From Mycolicibacterium porcinum (GTDB lineage Bacteria > Actinomycetota > Actinomycetes > Mycobacteriales > Mycobacteriaceae): DNA of 64,000 nucleotides. The notes under the pieces are model-generated. The model saw only the letters and a list, made by a program, of their open reading frames with translations. It was not told the DNA's origin and ran no database searches. Position numbers and translations under genes: made by a program. Location: assembly GCA_002086835.1 (NCBI GenBank), contig MVIG01000010.1:186001-250000 (forward strand), read 5' to 3'. Below, piece after piece: positions 16,053-32,098 of the stretch (within the stretch, counting starts at the first letter, position 1; every line of letters starts with the position of its first letter).

Positions 16053-17399
16053 TCAAGCCGCGTTCATCTTCCCGGCGGCCGCGGCAACCCAGCACAGTTC
16101 CTTGTGGAAGATGTCGCTGTGCGCGCCCGACGGGCCGTCGTCCTTGGCCACCACCGCCGACGAATCCAGGTTCAGGATCTGTCCGGGCTGGAACGGGTAC
16201 GGCACCCCCGGATCGTCCAGAACCTGCGTATCGCTGCGGAATGCCCCCATCGCTCCCATCGCCCGCCAGCGGGCCAGCGGATCGTCGATCGCGGCGGCGT
16301 CCTCCCCCGCCGTCAGCGACGCCAAGGGGTAGAACGTCCCCAGTGCCCGGTCGTGGCTGGAGTAGCAGACGGCCATCGGGCCGTCGATTCGGGCCAGCCG
16401 TCCGACCAGAGCACCGTCGCCGTCCCGGAACGGCAGGCCCTTGGTGAAGGTGAACCGCGAGAACGCGCCCTGAAGCAGGGTCACCGATTTCACCGGTGAC
16501 GGGTCGCGGCCGTCGATCCCGTCGAGGGCGAAGGACACCAGCCGGGCGCCGAAGCTGTGCCCGATCAGATGGATCCGCAGATCAGGGTGCGCGTCCGCGA
16601 GGTTGTCGACGGCCGGGCCGAGCCCCTTCTTACCGACCACACCGGCGCGGTTCTTCATCTTCCAGTAGCTGAGCTGCCGCAGGACTTCCTTGGCGCCGTG
16701 CCACAGCTTGCTGCCCAAATCGCCGAGGCCGGCCTCACCGCCTCCGCCGCCGTCGAACTGCACTCCGGCATCGGCTAGTCGGTCGGCGAACCGGTTGAAC
16801 ACATCGACGGGGTTACGCTGATCGTCGAGCATGCCGGGCACCCGCACCGGCTGGTCTTCCTCCCCGTCGTCGAATCCGGTCTTGGTGGCGGCGTTGAACT
16901 TCCGCAACTCGTCGAACAACGAGCCGGCTCGTTCGGCGGTCGGCGGCTTCTCCAACAGTTCGGCGATCGCGTCGAGATGCGCGCTGCCGTCCGGGAACAT
17001 GTCTTTCAGATCCGCGAGTTCGGCGGGGTCGATGGTGGCCGGCCCGGCCTCGGTGCCCGCCCGCTCCTCCAGCGCCGCGCCACCTCCTCCGTCCGCCGCC
17101 TGCGCATCGTCGAAATCCGGGATCGGTTCATCGCGCCACAGTTGCGACGGCCAGCGGATCCCGACGAATCCGACCTTGCGGGCCGGGTCGAGCTGGTCTG
17201 CCAGTAAGTCGAACCACCTGGCGTACAACGACTGCGCCGCGGCCTCGTCGTTGTTCCAGCCGTGCGAGAACAGCACCAGATCGGTGAGGCCCTCAGCGCC
17301 GACCCCGTCCCGCAGTTCGGTCAATGTCGCTTCATCGACGTCGCCGTCGGCGTCGAACACCAGCCGCCACAACGGCCTGCCCTTGATTCTCTCGATCAT
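16053..17399 (-). CDS. Alpha/beta-hydrolase-like serine esterase, unknown substrate
   Basis: Protein of 448 residues, no signal peptide. The N-terminal segment LVLFSHGWNND looks like the oxyanion-hole strand of alpha/beta hydrolases, and HLIGHSFGARLVSFAL is a standard nucleophile elbow with Ser282. Candidate catalytic His residues lie in YSSHDRALG or SGAHSDIFH near the C-terminus. A long insertion between residues about 80 and 260 is acidic and Gly-rich and includes a GGGG stretch. GAGGAGG precedes the start. It lies 31 bp downstream of a subtilase gene on the same strand, so the two are probably co-expressed, suggesting linked proteolysis/esterolysis or a two-part effector. I do not recognise a characterised homologue. 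Confidence 0.65.
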   Translation of the reverse strand: MIERIKGRPLWRLVFDADGDVDEATLTELRDGVGAEGLTDLVLFSHGWNNDEAAAQSLYARWFDLLADQLDPARKVGFVGIRWPSQLWRDEPIPDFDDAQAADGGGGAALEERAGTEAGPATIDPAELADLKDMFPDGSAHLDAIAELLEKPPTAERAGSLFDELRKFNAATKTGFDDGEEDQPVRVPGMLDDQRNPVDVFNRFADRLADAGVQFDGGGGGEAGLGDLGSKLWHGAKEVLRQLSYWKMKNRAGVVGKKGLGPAVDNLADAHPDLRIHLIGHSFGARLVSFALDGIDGRDPSPVKSVTLLQGAFSRFTFTKGLPFRDGDGALVGRLARIDGPMAVCYSSHDRALGTFYPLASLTAGEDAAAIDDPLARWRAMGAMGAFRSDTQVLDDPGVPYPFQPGQILNLDSSAVVAKDDGPSGAHSDIFHKELCWVAAAAGKMNAA

Positions 17400-17430
17400 G
17401 GTTCCTCCTCGACGGTCGTGACTGAACTCA

Positions 17431-19317
17431 TCAGACGGACTGCAGTGCGCGCATCAGGTCCAGCAGGCCACCGCCCTGAAAGGCCGGGTCACGGCCCAGG
17501 GAGGTGGCCGATTCGGTGAAGACCCGCTTGATCTCGTCGGGCTGGCCGATGAGCTCGCGCTGGACGGACAGAAACGCCGCGATCGCGCCGGACACATGCG
17601 GTGCGGCCATGCTCGTCCCGGTGGCCTCGATGTAGATGGCCGCACTCTCCTGCGGGGCATCGGTCTGTCGCAGCACATCGCTGCGGAACTTGCCTGCCGC
17701 AACTGATGTGATGCGCTCACCGGGGGCCAGCAGATCGGGTTTCCGCCTGCCGTCGCCGGTGGGTCCCTTGGACGAGAAATAGGAAACCCCAGAGGTGTGC
17801 GGCGCATCGCGGTGCGTCGACCCCACCGTGATCGCCCGCTCGGCGTTACCGGGATCGTTGATCGTCATGCCGGCGCTGAACTTCGTGACATCGGTGGTGA
17901 ACAGCGGGTTGAGCGAGACGTATCCGCTGTTTCCGGCCGCGGCGACCACGACCACACCCGACCGCACGGTCTTGTCGACCTCGATGCACAACGGGCTCTG
18001 ACCGCAGGCGAACCACTCCGCCGCGAACTCGTATCCCAGGCTGAGGTTCACACCGTGGATGCGGGGCATCCGCTCGCTCGCCGCATTGACCTCGCGGACG
18101 TAGGCCAGGGCCCGCATCACCCGGCTCACCCGGGAAGCCTTCTCTCCGGGCCCGAGCACCTTGAGGCTGACGAGCTTTGCCTCGGGCGCCATTCCCGCCA
18201 GCCGGCCGGGATCGCTGACCACCCGCTTCTGCAGGATGGGGATGTCGCCCTCCGGTGCACCGACGTTGAAGCGCTTCTCGGCCACATACACCTCGTCGGC
18301 GAACCCCTCGGGCAGCCCGCCTGCGATGATCCCCGCCACGTGAGAACCGTGCCCGTCGGCGTCCTGCAGCGCGCTCGGCGCGAACGCCTTGTCACCGCCG
18401 GTGACGGTAAAATCCCGGTGCAGATCGTGCACTGTCGGGTCGTCCACGGTAGCCCGGCTCTTGAAATGCGCGTGGGTCTCGTCGATTCCCGAATCGACGA
18501 CGGCCCAGACGATCCCCGATCCATAGCAGGCGAACGTGCGTTGCGCGGGGAGCACCTTGACGGTGTTCGACGACGCGTCGATCTGCGGGTGCGCATCGAA
18601 GTCGGGCCAGATCCGGTAGACCGCACGCTCAGGCCACTGTTGAGGCACAGAGTCCGCCGAGACGATGCCCTCGATCTGCCTGGTCGTCAACTCACCGGCC
18701 ATGAACTGGTCGGCCACCTCGACCGGTTCCCCGCTTCCCCTCACTAGGCGCCACAGCTCATGCACGCGCTCCACCGCTGCCGCGACACCCGCGGCGAACC
18801 GCAGATTCAGTTCGATCATGATCGGCCACAACGTTTCCCGAACCCGCTCGGGGTCCTCGCCGGGAGCCACCACGAACTTCTCCCGCAGCGGCGGAGTGAT
18901 CACGCCCGCCACCAGCAGGTCGCGATGCGGAGGCTGCTCGGGCGTCGCCGGCGCCACCGTCCTGACCGGCTCGGGAGGCGCCATCGCACGGTCACACGCC
19001 TGCTCGGCGGCAGCCTGACCCGCAGCGGTCAGCCGCACGATCGGCCGCGGTGCAACGGCTCCGGTCTTCTTCGCCGGTCTGCGCCGGGTGGCCTGCTTTC
19101 GGCGCACCAGTTCGCCGACGGCGTCGTCGACACTGCGGTGCCACTTGGGCGTACCGTCCACGCCGAGACGATCGTCGGAGTCGAACCGCGACGCGAAACG
19201 GGCTGCCACCGCCTCCAGAAGCTTCTGCGGACTGGCGTCGATGTGCTCGGCCGCCAAGTCGGCCAGGGCGCACTGCACCCGGTCGGTCCAGATCTCACTG
19301 TCAGAAGAAAGACTCAC
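17431..19317 (-). CDS. S8 family (subtilisin-like) serine peptidase
   Basis: Subtilase of 628 residues starting at GTG with GAGG upstream. The catalytic triad is intact: Asp275 in WAVVDSGIDETHAHF, His323 in DGHGSHVAG and Ser569 in ATGTSMAAPHVSGA. The oxyanion Asn is in VVAAAGNSGY. Residues 1-110 form a separate, mostly helical basic region (ALADLAAEHI, then TRRRPAKKTGA) that could be a DNA- or partner-binding module; there is no signal peptide, so it probably acts in the cytosol. First gene of a two-gene operon with the hydrolase downstream. It is divergent from the LuxR-type regulator and near the PatG-like gene, the second subtilase of this region. Confidence 0.88.
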   Translation of the reverse strand: MSLSSDSEIWTDRVQCALADLAAEHIDASPQKLLEAVAARFASRFDSDDRLGVDGTPKWHRSVDDAVGELVRRKQATRRRPAKKTGAVAPRPIVRLTAAGQAAAEQACDRAMAPPEPVRTVAPATPEQPPHRDLLVAGVITPPLREKFVVAPGEDPERVRETLWPIMIELNLRFAAGVAAAVERVHELWRLVRGSGEPVEVADQFMAGELTTRQIEGIVSADSVPQQWPERAVYRIWPDFDAHPQIDASSNTVKVLPAQRTFACYGSGIVWAVVDSGIDETHAHFKSRATVDDPTVHDLHRDFTVTGGDKAFAPSALQDADGHGSHVAGIIAGGLPEGFADEVYVAEKRFNVGAPEGDIPILQKRVVSDPGRLAGMAPEAKLVSLKVLGPGEKASRVSRVMRALAYVREVNAASERMPRIHGVNLSLGYEFAAEWFACGQSPLCIEVDKTVRSGVVVVAAAGNSGYVSLNPLFTTDVTKFSAGMTINDPGNAERAITVGSTHRDAPHTSGVSYFSSKGPTGDGRRKPDLLAPGERITSVAAGKFRSDVLRQTDAPQESAAIYIEATGTSMAAPHVSGAIAAFLSVQRELIGQPDEIKRVFTESATSLGRDPAFQGGGLLDLMRALQSV

Positions 19318-19718: not shown

Positions 19719-20474
19719 ATGCGACACCACGTCTTCGCCATCGTCGCGGTCAGGGCCTGGACCGAACTGCTCTCCGAGTGGATTCTCCGCATCCCGGGCT
19801 TCGAACTCGTGGGCACCGCAACCGATGCCACGGCCGCCCTGGGCGACCTGGCCAGGATCGACCTGCCTGTCGACATCGTGGTGATCGAGGTCAGCACCCG
19901 CCTGGCGCTGGAGTCCGCGCCGGCGCTGCGCCGCTCCGATCCACCGCGCAAACTGATCGCGGTCGCACTCGAGGACGATCCCGGTCAGGCGATGGCCTGG
20001 GCCAGCGCCGGCGCGGCGGGGCTGGTGGGACGCAACGCCTCCGTGGACCAGCTCTGCAGTGCACTGATCAACGTGTCCCGAGGCGCGGCGCACTGCTCCG
20101 ATGAGATCTCCGGTGCCCTGCTGCGCGGCATCGAGGCCAACGGCCCCCGGCGCACCGGCGGGCAGGGTCACTGCCTCACCGAGCGGGAACAGGAAGTGGC
20201 CTGGCTGTTGGCCCATGGACTGACCAACAGAGAGATCGCCGACCACCTGCACATCTCCCCCGGCACCGTGAAAAGCCATGTCCACAACGTGATCTGCAAG
20301 CTCGGCGTACGGCGCCGGGCCTATGTGGCCCGCAAGCTCGGCAACGGTGCGGCGGCCGAGCTCAGGATCAGGGAGTCTGCGCCGGCGCGGGCCGGACATA
20401 TGGGCGCAGCGGAGGCGGGCTGGTGTTCCACCGGCGCTGCTCTCGAAGGATGGCCGACTCGCCACCCGAGTTGA
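19719..20474 (+). CDS. NarL/LuxR-type response regulator with degenerate receiver
   Basis: Regulator of 251 residues. The N-terminal 120 residues look like a receiver domain (VFAIVAVRAWTELLSEW, then VVIEVS, then GAAGLVGRNASVDQL), but the phosphoacceptor region lacks the usual acidic DD pair. It may therefore be an atypical, phosphorylation-independent receiver. The C-terminal LuxR HTH is complete: LTEREQEVAWLLAHGLTNREIADHLHISPGTVKSHVHNVICKLGV, about residues 150-195. A poorly conserved tail follows and overlaps the antisense gene at 20368-20592. Its position just upstream of the PatG-like operon makes it a candidate regulator of the 16-36 kb region; the shared dyad supports that weakly. Confidence 0.82.
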   Translation: MRHHVFAIVAVRAWTELLSEWILRIPGFELVGTATDATAALGDLARIDLPVDIVVIEVSTRLALESAPALRRSDPPRKLIAVALEDDPGQAMAWASAGAAGLVGRNASVDQLCSALINVSRGAAHCSDEISGALLRGIEANGPRRTGGQGHCLTEREQEVAWLLAHGLTNREIADHLHISPGTVKSHVHNVICKLGVRRRAYVARKLGNGAAAELRIRESAPARAGHMGAAEAGWCSTGAALEGWPTRHPS

Positions 20475-20592
20475 GGTCGAGCTCGCAGATGAGCCTGCGG
20501 TGTTGGGTTCGCAGCTCGTCCTGACGCTCTTTGACCGCGAACAGATCCTGACGCATCTGCTCGATGCTTCTCTTGCTCCGCTTCGATGCCAT
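20368..20592 (-). CDS. Small basic coiled-coil protein, hypothetical
   Basis: A 74-residue protein rich in Lys, Arg, Gln and Glu in its first 45 residues (SIEQMRQDLFAVKERQDEL, then RRLICELDL), predicted to form a coiled coil, followed by a Pro-rich tail. Third codon positions are mostly G or C, as expected for a real gene. No ribosome binding site precedes the ATG. However, TTGACA (20623-20628, - strand) is followed after 18 nt by TAGCAC, 6 nt from the ATG, which suggests a leaderless transcript. Its 3' end overlaps the LuxR regulator gene antisense by 107 bp. It is divergent from the PatG-like operon. Function unknown. Confidence 0.5.
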   Translation of the reverse strand: MASKRSKRSIEQMRQDLFAVKERQDELRTQHRRLICELDLNSGGESAILREQRRWNTSPPPLRPYVRPAPAQTP

Positions 20593-20766: not shown

Positions 20767-22836
20767 ATGAACCAGGCGCAGGCTACCGAGCCACCGCAGA
20801 CCGTGCGGGCGGCCGACACCGACTTCATCCTCGGTGAGCTGACGGCACTGCGGGACAACGTGATTCCCGACCCCGAGGTATGCGTCGCGATCCTGGACGG
20901 CCCGGTCGACCTGACCCATCCGTGCTTCGCCGACGCCCGGATCACCCGCGCGGACTCGCTGGTTCTCGACGAGGCCGGCACCGGCGCGATGTCCGGCCAC
21001 GGCACGCACGTGGCCAGCATCGTGTTCGGCAAGCCGGGCACCGGAACGCTGGGCCTGGCCGCCGGCTGTCGCGGCGTGGTGGTCCCGATCTTCCAGGACA
21101 GCAGTGGGCACCTCACGCAACTCGACCTGGCCCGGGCAATCGAACGGGCGATGCTGAGCGGCGCGGATGTGATCAACATCAGCGGCGGTGAGCTCGTCGA
21201 GCGTGGCGAGGCAGACCCCTTATTGGCCCGCACCGTCGAGGCATGCGAGCGCAACGGCGTGCTGATCGTCGCCGCGGCGGGCAATGACGGGTGCGACTGC
21301 CTGCATGTGCCTGCGGCACTGCCGACCGTTCTGGCCGTCGGCGCACTCGGCCGCGACGGAACAGCCTTGCCGTCGAGCAACTTCGGTGATCGGTATGCGC
21401 GGAGCGGCGTCCTGGCGCCGGGCGAATCGATTCCCGGAGCCTTCCCCGGCGGCGCGATCGCCGAGCTCACCGGGTCCAGTTTCGCCACCCCCATCGTGAC
21501 CGCACTGGTGGCGCTACTGCTCTCCGCGCAGCGGCGGCGAGGCAGTGACGCCGATGTCGCCGAAGTGCGCCGGGCGGTGATCGCCAGTGCGCTGGCCTGC
21601 GCCCGGGATTCAGACCCCCGCTGCCTGGCGGGAATTCTCAACGTTCGCGGCGCACATGCGCTGATCACACAAGGAGACAAAGTGACCGAGATGGCTGCAA
21701 CACAGATCCCCCACGTCGCGAGTGCAGGAGTCGACGCGACACTACCCGATCCCGGGCTGATGAACCCTGGACCTCCGCCGGCACCGCCCGACATCGTTGC
21801 GGTGCCGACGGGAGTCGCGCCGTCGTGCGGCGGCGCGCCGTGCTCATGCGGCACCACGGCAGCCCAGGAGGCCACGACGGCGTCGGCTGCCCACGAAGCA
21901 CCGACGCCGCCCCAGTCAGCGCATCCGCTGCCGGTGTCGAACGTGTTCGCACTGGGCAATATCGGCTTCGACTTCGGCACCGAGGCCCGCCGCGACGGCT
22001 TCCGACAGCTCATGCCGATGGCCGAGAGCTCCGACGAGACACCGATAGTCACCGAACCGAACCCGTACGACGCGGTCCAGCTCGCCAACTATCTCGACAA
22101 GCACCCGTGGGAATCGACCAAGCTCATCTGGACGATGAACCTGAACCTCACCCCGATCTACGCGATCGAGGCCGAGGTCACCTACCACGAGGCCGTCTAC
22201 GAGATGCTGCGCTATGCGCTGCGCTGTCAGGTGCTTCCGGCCGAGGACGACGACTTCGTCTCACGGGTATCCCTTCCCGGCGTCCTCACCAACCGAACCG
22301 TGACGACGTTTGCCGGACAACGCCTTCCGGTGATCGTGGTGCAGCGCCGAGGGCTGTACACCTGGAACGAGAACAACCTCGTCAAGGCGGTGCTGGGCGC
22401 GATCGACTTCGACAAGCTCACCAATCAACTCGGTATCGACCGGTCCAAGGCCGAATCCCGCACCGAACTCAAGCTGCGGCAGATGCTCGACAAGGTGTAT
22501 TACGAGCTGCGCAATCTCGGCTCGTCGTCGGCGGATCGGGCGATCAATTACACGGCCACCAACGCCTTCATCTTCTCGGACGTGATGGCCAAGGGCCTGC
22601 TGGCCGGCGAGTTGGTGGACGGCGACGTGACCAGCCTGTACTCGCTGGAGAGCATCACCGCGGTCAAGAGCCCGTTCGGCCGGCTCGACTGCGACTGCTG
22701 GGACGTCAAGATCACGTTCTTCTCACCCGAGAACGAGCGGCGGGCCCGAGTGGTCTATCAGGCCACCGTCGATGTCAGCGACCCGTGGCCGGTGCAGCTG
22801 GCGCCCATCCATCAGTACCTGATTTCAGGAGGTTAG
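20767..22836 (+). CDS. PatA/PatG-type (cyanobactin-like) maturation protease
   Basis: Protein of 689 residues with two parts. Residues about 25-290 are a subtilase domain with Asp44 (AILDGPVDLTHP), His78 (GHGTHVAS) and Ser238 (TGSSFATP), as in PatA/PatG. After a Pro-rich, Cys-containing linker (APSCGGAPCSCGTT), residues about 390-689 (VFALGNIGFDFGTEARRD, then NPYDAVQLANYLDKHPWES, LTPIYAIEAE, then KSPFGRLDCDCWDVK and VDVSDPWPVQL) strongly resemble the C-terminal PatG domains of cyanobactin clusters. Those proteases cut leader peptides and, in PatG, macrocyclise cores. Start at ATG 20767; its ribosome binding site is weak. Two small peptide genes follow within 5 and 280 bp. No heterocyclase (PatD) or ThiF-like gene is seen in the window. 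Identification is from remembered motifs. Confidence 0.85.
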   Translation: MNQAQATEPPQTVRAADTDFILGELTALRDNVIPDPEVCVAILDGPVDLTHPCFADARITRADSLVLDEAGTGAMSGHGTHVASIVFGKPGTGTLGLAAGCRGVVVPIFQDSSGHLTQLDLARAIERAMLSGADVINISGGELVERGEADPLLARTVEACERNGVLIVAAAGNDGCDCLHVPAALPTVLAVGALGRDGTALPSSNFGDRYARSGVLAPGESIPGAFPGGAIAELTGSSFATPIVTALVALLLSAQRRRGSDADVAEVRRAVIASALACARDSDPRCLAGILNVRGAHALITQGDKVTEMAATQIPHVASAGVDATLPDPGLMNPGPPPAPPDIVAVPTGVAPSCGGAPCSCGTTAAQEATTASAAHEAPTPPQSAHPLPVSNVFALGNIGFDFGTEARRDGFRQLMPMAESSDETPIVTEPNPYDAVQLANYLDKHPWESTKLIWTMNLNLTPIYAIEAEVTYHEAVYEMLRYALRCQVLPAEDDDFVSRVSLPGVLTNRTVTTFAGQRLPVIVVQRRGLYTWNENNLVKAVLGAIDFDKLTNQLGIDRSKAESRTELKLRQMLDKVYYELRNLGSSSADRAINYTATNAFIFSDVMAKGLLAGELVDGDVTSLYSLESITAVKSPFGRLDCDCWDVKITFFSPENERRARVVYQATVDVSDPWPVQLAPIHQYLISGG

Positions 22837-22841
22837 CAAAT

Positions 22842-23027
22842 ATGAATACGCCTAGTCGTCATACCGCTGCGGGCGCACTGCCCCCGCAGCGACCCGGCAT
22901 CGCACGTCTGGATGACGATGCCCGCGGAGGCTTCGGGACAGGTTCGGTGCAAGCCTCGGTCAGCTGTGGAGACCTTCCCGGACTGGCTCGTTCGATGTGT
23001 TACGCATCGAAAGGGATCAAGTACTGA
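22842..23027 (+). CDS. Candidate RiPP precursor peptide 1 (61 aa)
   Basis: Small gene starting 5 bp after the PatG-like stop, with a perfect AGGAGG 9 nt before the ATG. The peptide has an N-terminal part with GALPPQRPGIARLDDDARGG and a C-terminal part rich in Gly and Ser with two cysteines (SVSCGDLPG and SMCYASKGIKY). LPPQ and the following Ile-x-Arg recur in the next peptide and partly in the third gene. Position beside a maturation protease, size and strong translation signal argue for a precursor with leader and core. There is no classical cyanobactin leader motif, so it would be a new type. Confidence 0.75.
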   Translation: MNTPSRHTAAGALPPQRPGIARLDDDARGGFGTGSVQASVSCGDLPGLARSMCYASKGIKY

Positions 23028-23115
23028 CCGCGTTCACCCCTGAAAGGAGCGAGTCGAGAATCAATCAGCAGATCAGGTTTTCAGTCAGTTCAACACAACA
23101 AACGAGGAGAAATCC

Positions 23116-23280
23116 ATGAGTACAGCAAATGAAATGCTGCCGCCCCAGGCTTCGCCGATCGATCGCACACCGGCGGGGGCCGCGGCATTCACCAACCAAG
23201 CGGGTGTCGGAGCGTCATTCGACTTCCCCTGGGAGCAGGTCGCCACCACCGGAATCGGAATCCTGGGCGGTCTGCTCTGA
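23116..23280 (+). CDS. Candidate RiPP precursor peptide 2 (54 aa)
   Basis: Small gene with GAGGAG 6 nt before the ATG. The peptide begins MSTANEMLPPQASPIDRTPAG, sharing LPPQ-x3-I-x-R with peptide 1, continues with an aromatic patch (ASFDFPWEQV) and ends in a hydrophobic Gly-rich segment TTGIGILGGLL. The hydrophobic C-terminus could be a membrane-active or lipidated core. A strong hairpin directly follows the stop codon. The 88-bp gap before this gene shows no dyad, only a purine-rich stretch. Confidence 0.75.
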   Translation: MSTANEMLPPQASPIDRTPAGAAAFTNQAGVGASFDFPWEQVATTGIGILGGLL

Positions 23281-23287
23281 AACCTGC

Positions 23288-23327
23288 TGCGGCGCATCGG
23301 CTGACATCCCGTCGCCGATGCGCCGCA
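23288..23327 (+). terminator. 14-bp hairpin, likely attenuator between precursor and enzyme genes
   Basis: TGCGGCGCATCGGC (23288-23301) pairs perfectly with GCCGATGCGCCGCA (23314-23327) around a 12-nt loop, starting 8 nt after the stop codon of peptide 2. No T-run follows. Partial terminators or processing hairpins at this place are common in peptide operons, giving more precursor than enzyme mRNA. It could also stabilise the upstream transcript end. Confidence 0.65.
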
Positions 23328-23361
23328 CTCCCATCGACCATCTCTACGGACGGAGTCACCC

Positions 23362-23748
23362 ATGACCGAATCCCCCAGCATCCGGGCGTTCTCGCTGAGC
23401 ATGCAGCAGGCACCGATCGTCCGGGACAGACCCACCGCGTTGATCAGGCCGGCCACCGAACAGCTGCCGCCCCGGGAGATCCGGTACGTCCAGCGCCCGC
23501 CGGATCGGCCTTTCCTGCCGGTGCAGGGCGCGGTTGACCGACGCAGTCTGTACCTGCTGCGGATGACACCGGGCCCGGACCAGAAGTTCGATGACGACGG
23601 TGTCACGAAGATCGCTCGGTTCTCGCGGTTCGGGTTGTTCGGCCCCGATCCGGCCGATCCCGCACCGTTCGTCCTGACGGCACCCTTCGGCGTTGCGATA
23701 TGCCCGACCCTCGCTCCGTATGCGGCCGCGCGCTGCGCCCGGACCTGA
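23362..23748 (+). CDS. Unknown 128-residue protein in the PatG-like operon
   Basis: Hypothetical protein with GGAG 7-8 nt before the ATG. It is Pro- and Arg-rich in the first half (TALIRPATEQLPPREIRYVQRPPDRPF), again carrying an LPP(Q/R) motif like the two upstream peptides. It is more structured in the second half (SLYLLRMTPGPDQKFDDDGVTKIARFSRFG). No signal peptide, membrane segment or known motif. It may be a small accessory or carrier protein of the pathway. Its end overlaps the start region of the reductase gene by up to 49 bp. I do not recognise a family. Confidence 0.6.
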   Translation: MTESPSIRAFSLSMQQAPIVRDRPTALIRPATEQLPPREIRYVQRPPDRPFLPVQGAVDRRSLYLLRMTPGPDQKFDDDGVTKIARFSRFGLFGPDPADPAPFVLTAPFGVAICPTLAPYAAARCART

Positions 23749-26700
23749 CGGCGGAAATGGCCGGGCGCGCGGCGGAGCTGTACGCCGCCGACCGGCAATT
23801 TCGTAGTGCCGTTCCGCTGCCCGAGGTGTCGGCCGCGGTCCGGCAGGACGGTCTCGGACTGGCCGGCATCATCGCCGCGGTCATGGCCGGCTACGCGGAC
23901 CGGCCTGCACTCGGGCGGTGCACCGGATCCGGGCTGCACACGATCAGCTATCGAGATCTCTGGCAACGGATCAACGCGATCGCCGCGGATTGGCGTACCC
24001 ACCCACGCTTCCCGATCTGGCCGGGAGAATTTGTCTGCACGGCTGGGTTCGCCGGCATCGACTACCTGACCGTGGACCTCGCCTGCGCCCTGACCGGTGC
24101 GGTGACAGTCCCGGTTCAGTACGGTGCCCCGCCGGAGCGATTGGCCCAGGTGCTGGCCGAAACCCGCGCATCGGTTCTCGCCGTCAGCTCGGATCAACTG
24201 CCCACCGCGGTGGAGGCCGCCTGCACCGCACCGGAGCTGCGCCGTCTCATCGTCTTCGACCATCAAACCCACATCGACGTGGCACTCGATCCCTCCTGGA
24301 CGGCCTTGCCGGTGCTGGTCGAAAGCCTCGACGACGTCATCGCACGCGGCCTGGAGCTCTCAGACGCTGCGTGGCCGCAACCCGCGTTGCCACCCGCCGA
24401 CCCGGACCGGCTCGTCGGGCTGTCCTACACCTCGGGCAGCACCGGGCAACCCAAGGCAGCGATGTACACCGAACGCATGGTGGCCGGCACCTGGCGCAAT
24501 CCCGTTGCCATACCGGTCATTTCCTACAACTACATGCCGATGAGCCATTACGGCGGGAAGGCGCTGGTCCTCACCACGCTGGCCAGTGGCGGCACGGCGT
24601 ATTTCGCCGCCGCACCGGACATGTCGACCATGTTCGACGACATCGCCCAGGTCCGCCCCACTGTGCTGCCACTCGTCCCCCGCGTGTCCGAGCTGATCTA
24701 CAGCAGGTACCAACGCGACTGCAGCCGGCGCTGCACGCCCGGATCAGATCCGGCCACGGTGCGCGAACAGGTGATGACCGACCTGCGGGACAACGCACTC
24801 GGCGGCCGGCTGCTACTTGCCGCCTCCGGCAGTGCGCCGCTGTCAGCGGAGCTGGCCTCCTTCATCGAATCGTGTCTGCACGTCCACCTCGCGATCGGCT
24901 ACGGCACCACCGAAACCGGGAACGTCCTCAACGACGGCCGGGTGGTTCGACCGCCGGTCATCGACTACAAGCTGATCGACGTGCCCGAACTGGGGTACTT
25001 CAGTACCGACCGGCCACATCCGCGCGGGGAACTCCTTGTGAAATCCGACATTCTCAGCCCCGGGTACTACCACCGCGAGGAGGCCACGGACACCGCCTTC
25101 GACGCCGAGGGCTATTACCGCACCGGCGACATCATGGCCGAGATCGGCCCGGATCACCTGGCCTTCGTGGACCGCCGCAGCAACGTGATCAAGCTGTCCC
25201 AAGGCGAGTTCGTCGCGCTCTCCCAGCTGGAATCGGTGTTCGTCGCCAGTCCGTACGTCCGGCAGATCTTCGTACACGGCAGCAGCCGACATGCGTTCCT
25301 CCTGGCCGTGGTCGTGCCCGAGAGCACTCCCGGACAACCCCCGGCCGGCAAGGCGGCGATCCTCGCATCTATACGGGCCATCGCCCGCGACAACGGATTA
25401 CGCCCGTACGAGGTACCCCGCGACATCCTGATCGAGCCCCGGCCGTTCAGCGTCGACAACGGACTGCTGACCGCTACCGCCAAACCGGCACGGCCGGCGC
25501 TCAACGCCCACTACGGTGATCAACTCGAACAGGTCTATGCCGCCATCGCAGACCGCCAGGCAACGGAACTCGCCGTACTTCGACGAGATGCTGCGAACAG
25601 TCCGGTACTGGACACCGTGCGTCGCGCGGTCACAGCGGCATTGGGCACCGACAGCATCGATGCGGATACCGTCCTGAGTGACGCAGGCGTCGACTCGCTG
25701 GCGGCATTGACGCTGGCGAACTTGCTGTCCGACATCTTCGATGTTCCGGTGCCTACCGCCGCGGTCCTCGATCCCACCCGTAGCCTGACCGGAATCGCCG
25801 CGCTGATCGAGGGAGAGCGCCACGCCGGCCGCCGGCCGGCCTACACAGCCGTGCACGACCCCGGCGCCACAGTGGTACACGCCAACGATCTGACGCTGGA
25901 CCGGCTCATCGGACCGCGCACCGCTGCCCGGGAGCCGAACACAACCCCGGCTGACGGCCCGCCCGGGACCGTCTTACTGACCGGCGCCAACGGCTTTCTC
26001 GGACAACTGCTCTGCGGGCAGTGGTTGCGCCGGCTCGCCCCCACCGGGGGCAGGGTGATCTGCCTGATCCGCGGGGCCGACAACGCCGACGCCCGTCAAC
26101 GCTTGAAGACCGAACTCGGCGAGCCCACGGAATGCCGCCTTGAGGTCCTCGCGGGTGATCTCGCCGGCGTACAACTCGGCCTGGACGCTGCCACCTGGTC
26201 TCGCCTGGCAGCCACAGTCGACCTGATCGTGCACGCCGGCGCCTTGGTCAACCACCTGCTGCCCTATCCGGATCTGTTCGGCCCCAATGTCGTCGGTACC
26301 GCCGGCCTGATCCGGCTGGCGCTCACCGGCAAGTCCAAGCGATTCGCCTTCGTTTCCACCGCGGCCGCCGGCACCACCGACGATGGCCGGGCGCTCCCCG
26401 AGGACGCCGACGTCCGGGTCGGCTGTCCGGCCCGCACCCGCACCGCGGCACCCGCGAACGGCTATGTGATCAGCAAATGGGCCGGGGAGGTACTGCTGCG
26501 CCGGGCGCACGACACCCACGGACTCTCGGTGCAGGTGTTCCGCCCCGGGATGATCCTGGCGCACAGCCGATTCCGTGACCATCTCAACATCGGGGACGTA
26601 TTCACCCGGCTGCTGCTGAGCCTGGCCAGCACCGGGATCGCGCCGCAGTCGTTCTATCGGCAGCCGGCTCACCGCGCCCACTACGACGGCCTGCCCGTCG

Positions 26701-27110
26701 ACTTCGTCGCCGCGGCGATCGTGGGACTGGCCGCAGAGCCCGAACCGGCCGGCGGATTCGCGACCTACAACGTGGTCAACGACCACGATGACGCCATCTC
26801 GCTCGACGTCGTCGTGGACTGGCTGACCGCGGCCGGGCACCCGATCACCCGCATCGAATCGCATCGAGAGTGGGTTGCGCGGTTCGAGACCGCCATGCGC
26901 GCGCTGCCGGCGCGGCAGCGGCGGCACTGTGTGCTCCCGCTCATGGCCGCGTTCGCCGAGCCCGCCGAAGCCGTTGCGGGATCGGCCTTCCCGGCACGGC
27001 GTTTTCGCCACGGCCTCCTGGCCATCGGCGGGTCGCTCGCCATCCCCCATCTGACACCCGATCTCGTTCAGGGCTACCTGCCCGCGCTACGTCGGCGTGG
27101 CCTCCTGTGA
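23700..27110 (+). CDS. Carboxylic acid reductase (adenylation-carrier-reductase), FadD9-like
   Basis: Three-domain enzyme of up to 1136 residues that activates a carboxylic acid with ATP, loads it on a phosphopantetheine arm and reduces it with NADPH to the aldehyde. The adenylation domain spans residues about 30-640 (GLSYTSGSTGQPKAAMYT, GYGTTETGNV, YYRTGD). The carrier domain carries Ser666 in DAGVDSLAAL. The reductase domain runs from about 757 (VLLTGANGFLGQLL) with Tyr and Lys in NGYVISKWAGE. Length and order match mycobacterial CAR/FadD9. The in-frame ATG at 23757 is an equally plausible start, 8 bp after the previous stop. A separate phosphopantetheinyl transferase is needed and is not in the window. 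Substrate unknown; fatty or aromatic acids are usual, and a peptide acid is conceivable here. Confidence 0.9.
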   Translation: MPDPRSVCGRALRPDLTAEMAGRAAELYAADRQFRSAVPLPEVSAAVRQDGLGLAGIIAAVMAGYADRPALGRCTGSGLHTISYRDLWQRINAIAADWRTHPRFPIWPGEFVCTAGFAGIDYLTVDLACALTGAVTVPVQYGAPPERLAQVLAETRASVLAVSSDQLPTAVEAACTAPELRRLIVFDHQTHIDVALDPSWTALPVLVESLDDVIARGLELSDAAWPQPALPPADPDRLVGLSYTSGSTGQPKAAMYTERMVAGTWRNPVAIPVISYNYMPMSHYGGKALVLTTLASGGTAYFAAAPDMSTMFDDIAQVRPTVLPLVPRVSELIYSRYQRDCSRRCTPGSDPATVREQVMTDLRDNALGGRLLLAASGSAPLSAELASFIESCLHVHLAIGYGTTETGNVLNDGRVVRPPVIDYKLIDVPELGYFSTDRPHPRGELLVKSDILSPGYYHREEATDTAFDAEGYYRTGDIMAEIGPDHLAFVDRRSNVIKLSQGEFVALSQLESVFVASPYVRQIFVHGSSRHAFLLAVVVPESTPGQPPAGKAAILASIRAIARDNGLRPYEVPRDILIEPRPFSVDNGLLTATAKPARPALNAHYGDQLEQVYAAIADRQATELAVLRRDAANSPVLDTVRRAVTAALGTDSIDADTVLSDAGVDSLAALTLANLLSDIFDVPVPTAAVLDPTRSLTGIAALIEGERHAGRRPAYTAVHDPGATVVHANDLTLDRLIGPRTAAREPNTTPADGPPGTVLLTGANGFLGQLLCGQWLRRLAPTGGRVICLIRGADNADARQRLKTELGEPTECRLEVLAGDLAGVQLGLDAATWSRLAATVDLIVHAGALVNHLLPYPDLFGPNVVGTAGLIRLALTGKSKRFAFVSTAAAGTTDDGRALPEDADVRVGCPARTRTAAPANGYVISKWAGEVLLRRAHDTHGLSVQVFRPGMILAHSRFRDHLNIGDVFTRLLLSLASTGIAPQSFYRQPAHRAHYDGLPVDFVAAAIVGLAAEPEPAGGFATYNVVNDHDDAISLDVVVDWLTAAGHPITRIESHREWVARFETAMRALPARQRRHCVLPLMAAFAEPAEAVAGSAFPARRFRHGLLAIGGSLAIPHLTPDLVQGYLPALRRRGLL

Positions 27111-27129: not shown

Positions 27130-28551
27130 TCAGAACAGGCCGTCGCGCCGGAGCCCCTCGACGGACGCGGTGAGCGCTTCACAGACCGCGTCCATCACCT
27201 CGGCGTCATGCGCGGCGGTGAACAACGGGTACAGGAACTCGGGAAGGTGCACCCCGGCGGCGCGAAGGTAATAGGTCCACAGGTATTCGGCCAGTGTGTA
27301 CCGCTGCGGGTGCACCAGGTCGACGAAATCCTCGACACCCATGGTGCCGAACAGCGGCCGGACCAGAGACTCGTACCGCCGCACCGCGATCGGGAAATCC
27401 GCCTCCTCGCGGAGGCGCTGCAGATGCCCGGCGAATCGATCGGCGGCCGCCCCGGTGGTTGCGTACACGGCGTCACCGTGGTCACGCAGGTAGGCGAGCT
27501 GGGCCAGGCCTGCCGTGCAGGACAGGATGTTGCCGCAGAACGTTCCCAGAACCCGGGTGCGGGTCTGCATGTCGCGCAGGTGTTCGCCTGTGGTGACTGC
27601 CATCTCGATGATGTCGGCGCGACCCACGGTGGCTCCGATCGGCATACCGCCGCCGATGATCTTGCCGAAGCTGGCCAGGTCAGGTGTGGGGCCCCGGGCA
27701 TCGAGGGCGCCGCCGAACCGGAACCGGAAACCGGTCAGCACCTCGTCGAACACCAGCAGGACGCCGTGTTGCGATGTCACCTCACGTAGTCCGAGCAGGA
27801 ACTCGCGGTCCACCACCGGCCAGCTCGAGCGGACCGGCTCGACGATGACGCACGCGAGTTCGGCGGCCCGCGCCTCGATCATCTCGAACGCGCTTCGGTC
27901 ATACGGCAGCACGACGGTCGACGACGCCACCGACGACGGGATGCCTGGCATCGACCCCGTTACCGTCCCGTCGGGCAGCCGCGCGGCCAGAACATCGTTG
28001 TGGTGGCCGTGATAGCACTGGTCGAACATCCCTATCAGCGGCCGCCGGGTATGGGCACGGGCCAGCTTGAGCGCGTGCATGGTCGCTTCAGTGCCCGAAC
28101 TGCTGAAGAATCCGCCTTCGGCCCACCCCACGGCGGCCAGCAGCAAGTTCATCAGGGCCGTCTCGGTTTCGTGCCCGGCTGCGAACGACAAACCGTCGTC
28201 GAGGGCGGTTCGCACAGCCTCGGTCACCACCGCGGGTGCGTGGCCGAGGATATTGGCCCCGCGTCCGTTGTCGAGGTCGATGAACTCGTTGCCGTCGAGA
28301 TCGGCCACATGCGCGCCGTGTGCCCGCGCCACCATCATGGGCAGGAGCCGAGGCATACCGTCGACGTAGTGGTTGTGAACCCCGGTCCGAGCCCGATGAG
28401 ACACGGCCGCAATAGTTTTCGGCTGCCGCCGGGTCAGGTCGACGATGCAGTCGAGTTCTCTCAGGCGCCGGTTCAGTCCGTCCGGATCGAGCATGAGCGC
28501 CCGAGTGGTGAAGGGCACCTGCGAATTCACGGTGCCCGTCGTCGTGGTCAT
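27130..28551 (-). CDS. Class III PLP aminotransferase (glutamate-1-semialdehyde aminomutase-like)
   Basis: PLP enzyme of 473 residues. Visible elements are FFSSSGTEATMHALKLAR (phosphate-binding), GMFDQCYHGHHND, LLVFDEVLTGFRF (Asp that contacts the PLP ring nitrogen) and SFGKIIGGGMPIGA with the Schiff-base Lys. The N-terminal 60 residues are an extra segment. Similar enzymes convert aldehydes to amines or shift amino groups. Placed tail-to-tail (19-bp gap) with the carboxylic acid reductase, it is a natural partner to aminate the aldehyde made by that enzyme, or by the alpha-dioxygenase route. It lies 10 bp downstream of the metalloprotease gene on the same strand, so the two share a transcript. 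Confidence 0.87.
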   Translation of the reverse strand: MTTTTGTVNSQVPFTTRALMLDPDGLNRRLRELDCIVDLTRRQPKTIAAVSHRARTGVHNHYVDGMPRLLPMMVARAHGAHVADLDGNEFIDLDNGRGANILGHAPAVVTEAVRTALDDGLSFAAGHETETALMNLLLAAVGWAEGGFFSSSGTEATMHALKLARAHTRRPLIGMFDQCYHGHHNDVLAARLPDGTVTGSMPGIPSSVASSTVVLPYDRSAFEMIEARAAELACVIVEPVRSSWPVVDREFLLGLREVTSQHGVLLVFDEVLTGFRFRFGGALDARGPTPDLASFGKIIGGGMPIGATVGRADIIEMAVTTGEHLRDMQTRTRVLGTFCGNILSCTAGLAQLAYLRDHGDAVYATTGAAADRFAGHLQRLREEADFPIAVRRYESLVRPLFGTMGVEDFVDLVHPQRYTLAEYLWTYYLRAAGVHLPEFLYPLFTAAHDAEVMDAVCEALTASVEGLRRDGLF

Positions 28552-28561
28552 CCGGCGCCCG

Positions 28562-29947
28562 CTAGTCCGGCCGGCCGACCCCGTCGGCCCACAGCCCCGG
28601 CCAGTTACCGGCCACCTGTTTCGGATAGCCGTTGTCCACCCGCGAAGTCGCGATGTCGTACCGGATGTACTGCGACCCCTTGAAGAAGTACGCCTTCTGG
28701 TTGTTCCTGATCACCACGTGATCGATGCCGCTTTCGTATTCGGCGGGCAGGTTGGGCGCCCAGTTGTCCTTGATCGGCTTGGGATAGCCCGCATCGACCT
28801 GGTCGGTGGCGATGTCATAGCGCAGGTACTCCGAACCCTTGAAGAAGTACGCCTTGCTGTTCGGCCACACCACCACCGCGTCGAACCCGTCCGGCCACAC
28901 CCCCGGCCAACTCGCCGAGATGTCCATCGGATAACCGGGATCCACCTTGTCCGTCGGAAGATCGAACCGGAGGTACCTGCTGCCCTTGAAGAAGTACGCC
29001 TTGCCGTTGGTCCACAGCACGTCAGCATCGATGCCATCGGCGAAGTCCGCCGGGAACCCGGTCCAGAATCCAGCGATCGGCAACGGGTATCCGGGGTCGG
29101 TCTTGCCTGCCGCGTCGTCGAACCGCGCGTACTGGGACCCGTTGAAGAAGTACAACTTGCCGTTCGGCCACACCGAACTCGGGGAGACCGGACCCGGGTA
29201 CAGACTGGCCGCGAACTGGGCGTCCAGGTTGTCGATGTCAGTTCCACCCGGCACGGCAATTCCGTCGGTCATGATCGAACCCGGCAAGTCGTAACACATG
29301 ATCGAGTTCTCGTCGGTCTCGTTGGTGGCGGTCAACGCCGAGACGTCGAACGGTGTCAGAACCTGCTCGATCACCTCCTCGCGCGACCACCCCTGGGTCG
29401 CCATGAAGAGGGTGATGGCCTTCTCCCGGTCGATCCGGTCGACGATCGCCTTGCGCCGATGCTCATGCGGGAAGCCCAGGGTGTGGCCCGTTTCGTGCCG
29501 CACCACCCGGTGAAACTCCGACTCGGGCGTGTTCATCGTGAAGCCCTCGAGGTTCATGGTCGGCTCATTCGCCGCGGCGAGCAGGATGTCGGTACCGAGG
29601 TACGACCAGTAGCCGTCGTCGGCAACGCGGGCGATCCGCACCTGGGGATTGACGCTGGAGGCCACGAACCTGACGTTGGCCCAGGCTCCCCAGGCGTTCA
29701 TGTGGGCCAGGATCCGGCTCTGCAGATCCGCCGGCGGAGAGTCGAGGAAGCCGACGGTGAGCCGGACACCGCCAGCATTCCACCGCTTGTTGGTCATGAT
29801 CGCCAGGTGCTCCCGGGACGGCATGTCGTCCGCGGACAGCCCCGTGACGTTGGGCGCATTCGCCGGATTGACCTCGACGGCCGCTTCCGCGGAGGCGACC
29901 ACTTTCTCGGCAGGCAACCCCTTGATCGTGCACGGAATGAATGTCAT
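28562..29947 (-). CDS. Astacin-like zinc metalloprotease with four hemopexin repeats
   Basis: Protein of 461 residues from the ATG at 29947, which has AAGGAGG 8 nt upstream; the frame is open further back but without signal. The catalytic domain has the metzincin signature HETGHTLGFPHEHRR (His151, Glu152, His155, His161) and a Met-turn-like SIMCYD, as in astacins. From about residue 265 come four hemopexin-type repeats, each with a WxNxKAYFFKGSxYLRYD-like core spaced about 50 residues, forming a likely four-bladed propeller for ligand or protein binding. No signal peptide is visible, unusual for this protease type; the first 45 residues may be a propeptide. It may process a peptide or protein of the neighbouring system. 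Confidence 0.85.
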   Translation of the reverse strand: MTFIPCTIKGLPAEKVVASAEAAVEVNPANAPNVTGLSADDMPSREHLAIMTNKRWNAGGVRLTVGFLDSPPADLQSRILAHMNAWGAWANVRFVASSVNPQVRIARVADDGYWSYLGTDILLAAANEPTMNLEGFTMNTPESEFHRVVRHETGHTLGFPHEHRRKAIVDRIDREKAITLFMATQGWSREEVIEQVLTPFDVSALTATNETDENSIMCYDLPGSIMTDGIAVPGGTDIDNLDAQFAASLYPGPVSPSSVWPNGKLYFFNGSQYARFDDAAGKTDPGYPLPIAGFWTGFPADFADGIDADVLWTNGKAYFFKGSRYLRFDLPTDKVDPGYPMDISASWPGVWPDGFDAVVVWPNSKAYFFKGSEYLRYDIATDQVDAGYPKPIKDNWAPNLPAEYESGIDHVVIRNNQKAYFFKGSQYIRYDIATSRVDNGYPKQVAGNWPGLWADGVGRPD

Positions 29948-30120
29948 CGTCGTACCTCCTTCGGTTCCGGACGTGATCGGTGATACCGGCGAACGTAGGA
30001 CGGTGCGGCGCGAGGCCACACGAGTGGAGCGCTACCTGTATTCCAAGGGTCCTGAACCGCGCGGCACCCCGGAACGCGCCGGTGACGAGGCACGGCCGGA
30101 CGAGACCGCCGCACGGGTTC

Positions 30121-30136: not shown

Positions 30137-30235
30137 ATGTCATTTCCGCCGCTGTGCACAACAATCGACGTGTGTGTCAAACGCACACCGCGATCCGGTT
30201 GCGCACGGATCGCTCCACCGGCCACGGAGGACACG

Positions 30236-32098
30236 ATGGTGACGTCGGCGCGGCAGGCCCCGCAGACTCTCGGCACGGTCTGGTCCCGGTCCCGGTCGGT
30301 GACGGTCACCCTCGCGGCCCGGGTGGCCGAGTGCATCGACAGGTCGGTCGGCTGGCCACGGCTGCCCAAGATCATCGGCCTGGCGGTGCTGATCGGACTG
30401 CGCCACCAGCTTCGGACGGCGAATCTGTATGCCGCCGAACCTGCCCCGATCATTCCAGGCGGGCCCGTAGACCCCGGGAACTACCTGACTGCCCGCACCC
30501 GTGACGGGTCCTACAACGACCTCGCCGATCCGAGGATGGGTGCGGTAGGTTGCCGGTTCGGCCGCAACGTCCCCCCTGAACACTGCTATCCGGAATCGGC
30601 CCAGAAACTGCTCGATCCCAACCCCCGGCTGATCAGCCGTACCCTGCTGACCCGCGACACTTTTCAGCCCGCCACCTCGCTCAACCTGCTCGCCGCGGCG
30701 TGGATTCAGTTCGAGGTGCACGACTGGTTCGCCCACGGCTCGGTGCCCACCCAACCCTGGGTGGTGCCGCTGCGCGACGACGACCCGTGGCCCGAGCGGC
30801 CGATGCGGGTCGAGCGCACCCCACCTGATCCGCGCCCCAGTCCCACCGGGCCGCCGACCTTCGTCACCCAGGAGTCGCATTGGTGGGACGCCTCCCAGAT
30901 CTACGGGACCACACCGGCATTCGCGAGTGCGCTACGCGCACCGGAGCACGGCAAGCTGCGCATCGACGACGTCGGCCTGCCGCCTCCCGAGGTCGAGGCG
31001 ACCGCCGACCTGTCTGGCACCGCGGGAAACTTCTGGGTGGGCCTGGCGTTGCTGCACTCGCTGTTCATGCGCGAGCACAACGCCATCTGCGACCGGCTGG
31101 CCGAGGCCTATCCTCATCTGACCGGCCAACAGCTCTACGACAAGGCCCGCCTGGTCAACTCCGCACTGATGGCCAAGATCCACACCGTGGACTGGACACC
31201 GGCCATCATCGCCCACCCGACGACGGTGACCGCCATGCGTGTCAACTGGTTCGGGCTCCTCGGCGAGCGGCTGGGCCCCCGGTTCCGGCAGCGCTTCGGG
31301 CGGATCAGCACCAGCCCACTGCTGCACGGCATCCCCGGCTCACCGACCACCCATCACGGCGTGCCGTATTCCTTGACCGAGGAGTTCGTCGCGGTGTATC
31401 GGATGCACCCGCTGATCCCGGACGAGTTCACGTTCCGCTCGCTGGCCGACGACCACGTCACCGCACACCACGAGCTGCCGGAGTTGTCGGTGCTCAACGT
31501 GCGGGACCGGCTCTCCGAATGCCCGATGACCGACCTGCTCTACTCCTTCGGTCGCGCCCATCCCGGGGCGTTGTCGCTGCACAACTTCCCGCGGCATCTG
31601 CAGCACATGCATCGCGTCGACGGCACCCTGATGGATCTGGCCACGATCGACCTGATCCGATCCCGGGAGCGAGGTGTGCCGCGCTACAACCAGTTCCGCG
31701 AGTTGTTCCGGCTCAAGCCGGTGAGGACGTTCGAGGAACTGACCGGAGAGACGACGCTGGCCGCCGAGCTTCGCGAGGTTTACGACGACGACGTGGACCT
31801 CGTCGACCTGATGATCGGTCTCTACGCCGAGCCCAAGCCGCCCGGATTCGGCTTCAGCGACACCGCATTCCGAGTGTTCATCCTCATGGCGACCCGTCGG
31901 TTGGAGAGCGACCGCTTCTTCACCACCGACTTCCGTGAGGAGACGTACACCGTCGCCGGCATGAACTGGGTGCGCGACAACAACATGCGCTCGGTGTTGT
32001 TGCGCCACTTTCCCGAACTGTCCCCGGCCCTGGCCGGCGTCGCCAACCCGTTCGCTCCATGGACCCCTGTCTCCCCCACCAGAAAGGCATCCGTATGA
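30236..32098 (+). CDS. Fatty-acid alpha-dioxygenase-like heme peroxidase family enzyme
   Basis: Animal-heme-peroxidase/cyclooxygenase superfamily enzyme of 620 residues. EEFVAVYRMHPLIPDEF carries Tyr388 and His391 in the spacing of the catalytic Tyr and proximal heme His of alpha-dioxygenases and prostaglandin synthases. EVHDWFAHG supplies the distal His162. Plant alpha-dioxygenases of this type convert fatty acids to 2-hydroperoxides, which lose CO2 to give aldehydes one carbon shorter. I choose the ATG at 30236 because GGAGG lies 6 nt before it; the frame is open from 30137. A hydrophobic stretch near residues 40-60 may associate with membrane. The stop overlaps the next start (ATGA), so a catalase-related enzyme is made together with it. 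Confidence 0.85.
   Translation: MVTSARQAPQTLGTVWSRSRSVTVTLAARVAECIDRSVGWPRLPKIIGLAVLIGLRHQLRTANLYAAEPAPIIPGGPVDPGNYLTARTRDGSYNDLADPRMGAVGCRFGRNVPPEHCYPESAQKLLDPNPRLISRTLLTRDTFQPATSLNLLAAAWIQFEVHDWFAHGSVPTQPWVVPLRDDDPWPERPMRVERTPPDPRPSPTGPPTFVTQESHWWDASQIYGTTPAFASALRAPEHGKLRIDDVGLPPPEVEATADLSGTAGNFWVGLALLHSLFMREHNAICDRLAEAYPHLTGQQLYDKARLVNSALMAKIHTVDWTPAIIAHPTTVTAMRVNWFGLLGERLGPRFRQRFGRISTSPLLHGIPGSPTTHHGVPYSLTEEFVAVYRMHPLIPDEFTFRSLADDHVTAHHELPELSVLNVRDRLSECPMTDLLYSFGRAHPGALSLHNFPRHLQHMHRVDGTLMDLATIDLIRSRERGVPRYNQFRELFRLKPVRTFEELTGETTLAAELREVYDDDVDLVDLMIGLYAEPKPPGFGFSDTAFRVFILMATRRLESDRFFTTDFREETYTVAGMNWVRDNNMRSVLLRHFPELSPALAGVANPFAPWTPVSPTRKASV

Follow-up and report, generated by a model that had tools for sequence, protein, structure and literature searches.

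A 64,000-nucleotide stretch of the Mycolicibacterium porcinum genome (contig MVIG01000010.1, positions 186,001 to 250,000; hereafter ‘the window’) carries a gene for a PatA-type subtilisin followed by genes for two tiny peptides, pep1 and pep2, for a 128-aa protein and for a carboxylic acid reductase (CAR). It is probable that this locus is a heterocyclase-free and macrocyclase-free branch of the cyanobactin system that frees short linear peptides. The protease type, the precursor families, their tag and sites, the synteny, the selection and the lack of YcaO and of a macrocyclase are all read from the sequence. In the mechanism that we propose, the subtilisin, with its C-terminal domain of unknown function (DUF), would recognize small precursors through an N-terminal tag, LPxQxxP[VI]xR, which would deliver them to the protease, possibly at its DUF; cutting after a G[VI]x[AP]S-type (GVxAS-like) site would then free the core. 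The product from pep2 would be linear, hydrophobic and 20 residues long, and that from pep1 would have 22 residues and be able to close one Cys-x10-Cys disulfide, whilst the 128-aa protein would probably supply a third cargo. A LuxR protein encoded upstream, on the same strand as the protease, probably switches on the operon, and the CAR and an aminotransferase would have been added in one clade only and may modify a pathway acid. A peptide-maturation system supposed to be cyanobacterial would on this account extend to mycobacteria, Streptomyces plasmids and several other phyla, seemingly stripped to a protease and its substrates.

An earlier note on this DNA had described the protease as PatA/PatG-like, with a triad of Asp44, His78 and Ser238 and a C-terminal region resembling PatG, and had proposed an HMM (hidden Markov model) search of that region; all of this holds. 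The protein lies well over the TIGR03895 cut-off (601 versus 421 bits, E 2.1e-180), and in a 44-row alignment, made up of the window and 41 of the 50 loci from genome_contigs with nine left out, all rows with a residue at the position keep Asp44, His78, Asn173 and Ser238. The C-terminal region matches PF18065 significantly (1.7e-30, over its cut-off) and PF18047 just below the cut-off of 27 (25.2 bits, 2.4e-5), and residues 391-686 match the PatG DUF structure 4uvq (9.1e-52). The protease has a ratio of non-synonymous to synonymous change (dN/dS) of 0.09-0.14 between the window and clade members.

The further suggestion that this enzyme cuts and cyclises peptides is not borne out. Against PDB structures, the S8 half scores 305 bits with PatA (4h6v, 6.8e-90) and 144 bits with the PatG macrocyclase. 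The PatA alignment runs through, whereas the PatG macrocyclase structure 4aks has 41 residues between the catalytic Asp and His where the window protease has 5, and no macrocyclase insert is found there in either the structure-sequence comparison or the 44-row alignment. The Asp-His spacing is 35 in the window protease and 34-38 in the PatA-type rows holding both residues (two rows are fragments), and 168 in one PatG-type row (Tolypothrix). No YcaO was detected across the whole genome, which agrees with the earlier remark that the heterocyclase is missing, and neither was a second PatG_C protein, the genome having a single PatG_C gene. The better match to PatA than to PatG, the spacing, the lack of an insert, of YcaO and of a further PatG_C protein together argue that the predicted enzyme is of the leader-cutting A type, PatA-like and not PatG-like, and not a cyclase.

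All five open reading frames (ORFs) of the operon that the earlier note had outlined are present. The pep1 gene begins 5 nt after the protease gene, its Shine-Dalgarno-like GGAGGT sits within the final codons of the latter, and by eye pep1, pep2 and the 128-aa gene each have such a sequence ahead of them. The operon is not a chance arrangement, because protease, pep1, pep2 and 128-aa gene recur in this order in the mycobacterial loci that reach that far, the last gene being shortened in M. houstonense.

The ties of the tiny genes to the protease extend to a leader motif and cut sites that the earlier note had missed. The leader motif of cyanobactin precursors is given as KKNxxPxxxxPVxR (PMC3428304), and PatA is described as cutting after G(L/V)E(A/P)S (PMC10885120). 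The present tag is likened to the cyanobactin leader because it fits the PxxxxPVxR part of the published motif. The fit in pep2 is with Ile for Val (PIxR); by position-specific scoring matrix (PSSM) its leader, at 21.1 bits, is the best of 109,743 window positions, the best of 20 shuffles reaching 16.8. The GVGAS of pep2 is a looser form of the PatA recognition sequence and reads GVEAS in one M. peregrinum strain (locus L034); SVQAS of pep1 is likewise a looser form. HMMs were built solely from loci of Streptomyces and of non-mycobacterial Mycobacteriales and scanned against 1152 window segments, the training peptides being hand-picked, as they were for a class-1 HMM from other phyla. The pep1 and pep2 segments each rank first (E 8e-10 and 1.9e-9), and the model from other phyla gives pep1 alone an E of 0.006. 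The pep1 core of 22 residues, with its Cys-x10-Cys, and the pep2 core of 20 extend to the stop codon, so there is no follower sequence in either, and no LAELSEE heterocyclase element is seen by eye in any of the three peptides. The calculated [M+H]+ is 2134.12 for the predicted pep2 core and, for that of pep1, 2317.11 oxidised and 2319.13 reduced. Between the window and four relatives the changes in pep2 number 6-9 synonymous and 0-1 non-synonymous (17 and 3 against a fifth), and the pep2 core scarcely varies within the fortuitum clade. The last 27 residues of pep1, from SVQAS onwards, are identical in five of the six fortuitum-clade sequences, and the sixth differs by a single A-for-S change. 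Both are likely to be precursor peptides and substrates of the protease.

The 128-aa protein had been listed as unknown. The ORF is real, and the protein is probably a third precursor (pep3), to judge by its tag LPVQGAVDRR, a looser form of PxxxxPVxR, and its Cys-x10-Cys. Its homologue in a diverged mycobacterium (genome G231) is 43% identical (4e-22) and carries LPVQAPPVDR, and Streptomyces counterparts carry tags such as LPVQGAVERR. An HMM from Streptomyces and G437, of another Mycobacteriales genus, ranks pep3 first of the 1152 segments but weakly (E 0.058). Homology of pep3 to PatB (TIGR04220) was considered and is unsupported: there is no HMM match, and a profile comparison aligns the tag and a DP motif with a probability of only 6%.

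Relatives were sought in drawn samples of 148, 396, 298, 396 and 200 genomes. PatA-type matches occur in nine of 396 genomes of the genus, in two further genera among 298 of the order and in one new genome among 396 of the phylum, as well as in 10 of 72,556 plasmid records. The 50 loci from genome_contigs come from mycobacteria, cyanobacteria, Proteobacteria, Acidobacteriota and others. Four of five Streptomyces plasmid records were used, the fifth (H3) being a second S. xanthophaeus record of the same length; L118-L122 partly repeat L034-L037 (L120 is L035, L121 is L037 and L122 is L036), and L128 repeats the locus of G782 (L125). YcaO and CAR were sought in relatives within the locus stretches.

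Small ORFs beside the protease in these relatives share a leader motif followed by a variable, often Cys-rich tail. A loose regular expression finds 64 such ORFs within 3.5 kb of the protease (304 kb searched) and 4 farther off (438 kb); the 64 include three on the minus strand, six PatB-like peptides and four mycobacterial pep2 genes. A strict PxQxxP[VI]xR peptide on the same strand within 2.5 kb is present at 38 of 53 loci, against one of 53 in the opposite-strand control, a count that leaves out L118-L122 and four loci with <900 nt downstream and keeps near-copies such as four Janthinobacterium loci. At least two strict-tag peptides are found in 15 loci, and there are up to five tag peptides per locus. 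Of the 57 training peptides, 17 have a G[VIL]x[PA]S site after the leader (shuffle mean 0.9, maximum 4).

Three peptide classes can be distinguished by comparison with other actinobacterial loci, namely those of G231 (protease identity 58-64%), of two other Mycobacteriales genera (G437 and G646) and of four Streptomyces plasmids. In all of these loci the peptide that comes first behind the protease is of class 1, to which pep1 belongs; in other phyla this is not always so. The class-1 core has two Cys exactly ten residues apart, CxxLxGxAxxxC with variation, and recurs across phyla. Downstream of the protease and on its strand, 28 ORFs from 21 of the 57 loci show this spacing (180 kb of strand), as do 19 ORFs elsewhere (1.7 Mb of strand); repeat loci are included, and five of the 19 are genuine peptides misplaced by the start rule. 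Class 2, that of pep2, has short, mostly hydrophobic cores, and 11 of 20 hand-picked pep2-type cores have a helical moment above that of at least 97% of shuffles. Streptomyces NBC_00299 has four tandem class-2 genes with near-identical leaders through GVEAN and three different cores, the constant leader and variable core expected of ribosomally synthesized and post-translationally modified peptides. Class 3 has a tag of LPVQ type together with a DP motif, and in mycobacteria it carries C-x10-C at its end; in the G646 candidate DP motif and C-x10-C are present and the tag is not. In plasmid records the short peptides of the kit are annotated merely as hypothetical proteins. No conserved modifying enzyme was found in these loci, CAR being confined to one clade; a disulfide is possible.

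A quick tree of 50 rows (eight added to the alignment loci, fragments L073 and L078 dropped), with branch support by the SH-aLRT (Shimodaira-Hasegawa-like approximate likelihood ratio test) only, places all 12 actinobacterial PatA-only rows in one clade (support 100), nested in a clade of 43 rows (support 94). Outside the latter lie three loci with PatD or PatB (L056, L040 and L050) and also L038 and L039, where the downstream sequence is cut off. Inside the 43-row clade, a PatG-type protease and a short match resembling YcaO lie close to L046, and a partial match to PatD, in its non-YcaO part, lies close to L065. Full-length PatD is present in three of 65 loci (L050, L056 and L073). The L050 locus (L050:4314-15699, a contig of an Actinomycetales metagenome-assembled genome) encodes YcaO, PatA, a PatB-like peptide scoring just below its model's cut-off, a second PatA/PatG-type protease and a ThcOx-type oxidase. 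It appears to be a near-complete cyanobactin cluster labelled actinobacterial, and mis-binning is possible.

The leader tag most likely serves the protease protein itself, because it persists in locus stretches that have neither heterocyclase nor macrocyclase. Recognition by the DUF in particular is suggested by the survival of the tag in loci without heterocyclase and by its presence on PatB, a protein of unknown function with an LPxxSxPVxR-type N-terminus. We infer that cleavage takes place at the predicted sites, that the DUF reads the tag, that the product leaves the cell and that short hydrophobic cores act on membranes; a membrane role for class-2 cores across the family is a guess. A broader version has somewhat less than an even chance of being right: that in several phyla PatA alone, with small tagged peptides and no ring-forming enzyme, frees short linear peptides, its DUF reading LPxQxxP[VI]xR, and that CAR was recruited in one mycobacterial clade, where a stand-alone CAR would then, perhaps for the first time, make an aldehyde of a ribosomal peptide. 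The role of the PatA/PatG DUF, treated as an open question in PMC4259220, becomes testable with a two-component assay.

Several observations weigh against this account. As reported in PMC4259220, the isolated PatG-DUF did not bind PatE by nuclear magnetic resonance, which speaks against binding of the tag by the DUF, at least for PatG. Fifteen of the 53 loci are without a strict-tag peptide, though some carry looser tags. The Asp-His spacing is an imperfect mark of protease type, as the second protease of L050, taken as PatG-type, has a spacing of 36. The pep1 leader is degenerate and not significant by PSSM (5.1 bits), the all-phyla pep1 HMM places the pep1 segment only third in the window, and the assignment of pep3 comes mainly from synteny and motifs. 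The window pep2 core is hydrophobic (99th percentile), but a fraction of 0.137 of shuffles reach its helical moment, so that it is not significantly amphipathic. No peptide exporter was recognized beside the loci in Streptomyces plasmid annotations and seven window genes, most neighbours not having been scanned; near the locus on one Gloeocapsa plasmid there is a gene of the bile acid:sodium symporter family.

The earlier note gave the reductase a defining part and asked whether protease, peptides and reductase stay together, with homologues regularly lacking the small genes and the reductase as its refutation. The peptides stay with the protease in most loci; the reductase does so in one clade only, and its defining part fails by that criterion. 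The CAR scores 1367 bits with NF041592 (cut-off 1300). Among the matches listed, close orthologues (100, 78 and 69% identity) occur only in three PatA-carrying genomes of the 148 of the genus, every other CAR being at most 53% identical, and the picture is the same in 200 genomes of the order. Of 65 loci, nine have it, all from the fortuitum-peregrinum clade; three of these nine repeat the same contigs. It was not found in the locus stretches of the other 56, which include G231, G437, G646 and the four Streptomyces plasmids. The possibility that CAR is a core tailoring enzyme, reducing the C-terminal acid of the freed peptide, or a fatty acid for attachment, to give a peptide aldehyde or lipopeptide, draws on the position of its gene directly after pep3, on this restriction to PatA carriers and on the convergent aminotransferase gene, found in four of the 148 genomes, three of them PatA carriers. 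It is nevertheless improbable. The 16-kb locus stretch of G231 holds the protease and all three peptide classes without CAR, no non-mycobacterial locus compared has it, and its dN/dS is 0.24-0.33 against the 0.09-0.14 of the protease. In M. houstonense (L035:12572-15652) a deletion has fused the beginning of pep3 in frame with CAR at residue 209, so that the first 208 CAR residues are missing, though this is one genome and could be an assembly fault. The co-occurrence of CAR and PatA is that of one clade and possibly reflects one event. As a general feature of the system a core role for CAR was rejected; by its sequence and distribution the enzyme is a fast-evolving, dedicated and clade-bound addition of one mycobacterial clade. 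An accessory role for the aminotransferase is only possible.

Of the other alternatives, the one to be taken most seriously, although we think it unlikely, is that the freed peptides serve as signals, either pheromones or regulators, for the LuxR protein or some other receptor, and not as antimicrobials. A LuxR-type gene lies upstream of PatA in the window and in G231 (L115:3516-4232), with relatives in L034, L035 and L037, and a BTAD regulator adjoins the protease gene in the four Streptomyces plasmids. The near-invariance of pep1 from SVQAS onwards and the recurrence of its core across phyla would also suit a signal. The hypervariable pep2 cores of Streptomyces are unlike one pheromone with one receptor, and no dedicated receptor gene was recognized among the few neighbours scanned. 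It is less probable again that the peptides are cofactors or inhibitors of the protease (chaperone or propeptide-like regulators) and not its products. The PatB N-terminus and the place of pep1 immediately after the protease in actinobacterial loci would fit such a role, but a constant leader with a hypervariable core marks a substrate, and up to five tag peptides in a locus are hard to reconcile with it. Family membership and the leader motif could even suggest a true cyanobactin, with macrocyclic peptides made by this single protease. This is very improbable, and was rejected, given the lack of a macrocyclase insert, of a second PatG_C (G-type) protease, of YcaO and of a C-terminal follower in pep1 and pep2.

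Coordinates of the locus in the window, with the basis of each assignment
Feature	Position	Strand	Basis or remark
LuxR-type (GerE) regulator	19719..20474	+	PF00196 2.1e-16; start picked by comparison with relatives
PatA-type protease, 689 aa	20767..22836	+	S8 domain ~residues 35-300; DUF (PatG_D/PatG_C) ~391-686
pep1, 61 aa, putative Cys-x10-Cys class precursor	22842..23027	+	HMM, Cys-x10-Cys survey
pep1 tag LPPQRPGIAR	22878-22907		
pep1 predicted site SVQAS	22944-22958		
pep1 predicted core VSCGDLPGLARSMCYASKGIKY	22959-23024		
pep2, 54 aa, putative PatE-like precursor	23116..23280	+	leader score, HMM, near-invariant protein
pep2 leader motif LPPQASPIDR	23137-23166		
pep2 predicted site GVGAS	23203-23217		
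pep2 predicted core FDFPWEQVATTGIGILGGLL	23218-23277		
128-aa protein, probable third precursor (pep3)	23362..23748	+	synteny, motifs
pep3 tag LPVQGAVDRR	23515-23544		
pep3 Cys-x10-Cys CPTLAPYAAARC	23701-23736		
Carboxylic acid reductase (CAR), adenylation-carrier-reductase (A-T-R)	23757..27110	+	NF041592 1367 bits
Class-III aminotransferase	27130..28551	-	PF00202 2.5e-46; convergent with CAR

The CAR gene may start at 23700 or 23757, its frame being open from 23700; the ATG at 23757 is favoured because most other CARs align from about residue 15-23. Other neighbours may be noted. A 74-aa ORF (20368-20592, minus strand) lies opposite the 3' end of the LuxR gene and has relatives in L034-L037. 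Just past the aminotransferase is a zinc metalloprotease with four hemopexin repeats (28562-30019, minus strand), and a different (M35) metallopeptidase with hemopexin repeats adjoins PatA on a Streptomyces plasmid (L127:3319-4968). An animal-type haem peroxidase (PF03098, 6e-108), here in a mycobacterium, follows at 30137-32098 on the plus strand. On the other side, a pair of alpha/beta-hydrolase-like and S8 protease genes (16053-19317, minus strand) resembles in sequence a pair near PatA in G231 (L115:12013-14820). The S8 protease (17431-19317) was considered as a partner, but matches in 23 of 148 genus genomes show that it is not specific. Also in G231, and separated from PatA by a few genes, is a PatG_D/PatG_C protein that stands alone, with no protease domain (L115:10309-11280, minus strand).

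Compared with known systems, the locus shares with the patellamide type of cyanobactin (PatA, PatE, PatB) a PatA-type protease with its DUF, a PxxxxP[VI]xR leader, a PatA-type cut site and several precursor genes per locus with hypervariable cores. It differs from that type in lacking PatD/YcaO, the PatG macrocyclase, the oxidase, the LAELSEE element and the C-terminal recognition sequence, and in having two further peptide classes and an actinobacterial host. Cyanobactins of the anacyclamide/piricyclamide type retain a G macrocyclase and a prenyltransferase, neither of which is present here. They share with the present locus the lack of a heterocyclase, and TIGR04446, the PirE-type model, gives a weak match (16.4 bits against a cut-off of 35) to a pep2-type peptide of Spirulina. 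That some cyanobactins have no heterocyclase is on record (PMC4603692). A linear product, as expected here, is known from the aeruginosamide/viridisamide cyanobactins (PMC4663559); these are called highly modified in a paper title, whereas the present loci have no conserved modifying enzyme. The CAR resembles stand-alone CARs (NF041592) in being an A-T-R enzyme over the family cut-off and differs in its identity of at most 53% to the other mycobacterial CARs listed and in being embedded behind precursor genes. In the literature covered, which mostly excludes subscription journals and preprints and was seen in part, no account was found of such a kit outside cyanobacteria. Since heterocycle-free and linear cyanobactins are already known, the kit would be a variant of the cyanobactin system.

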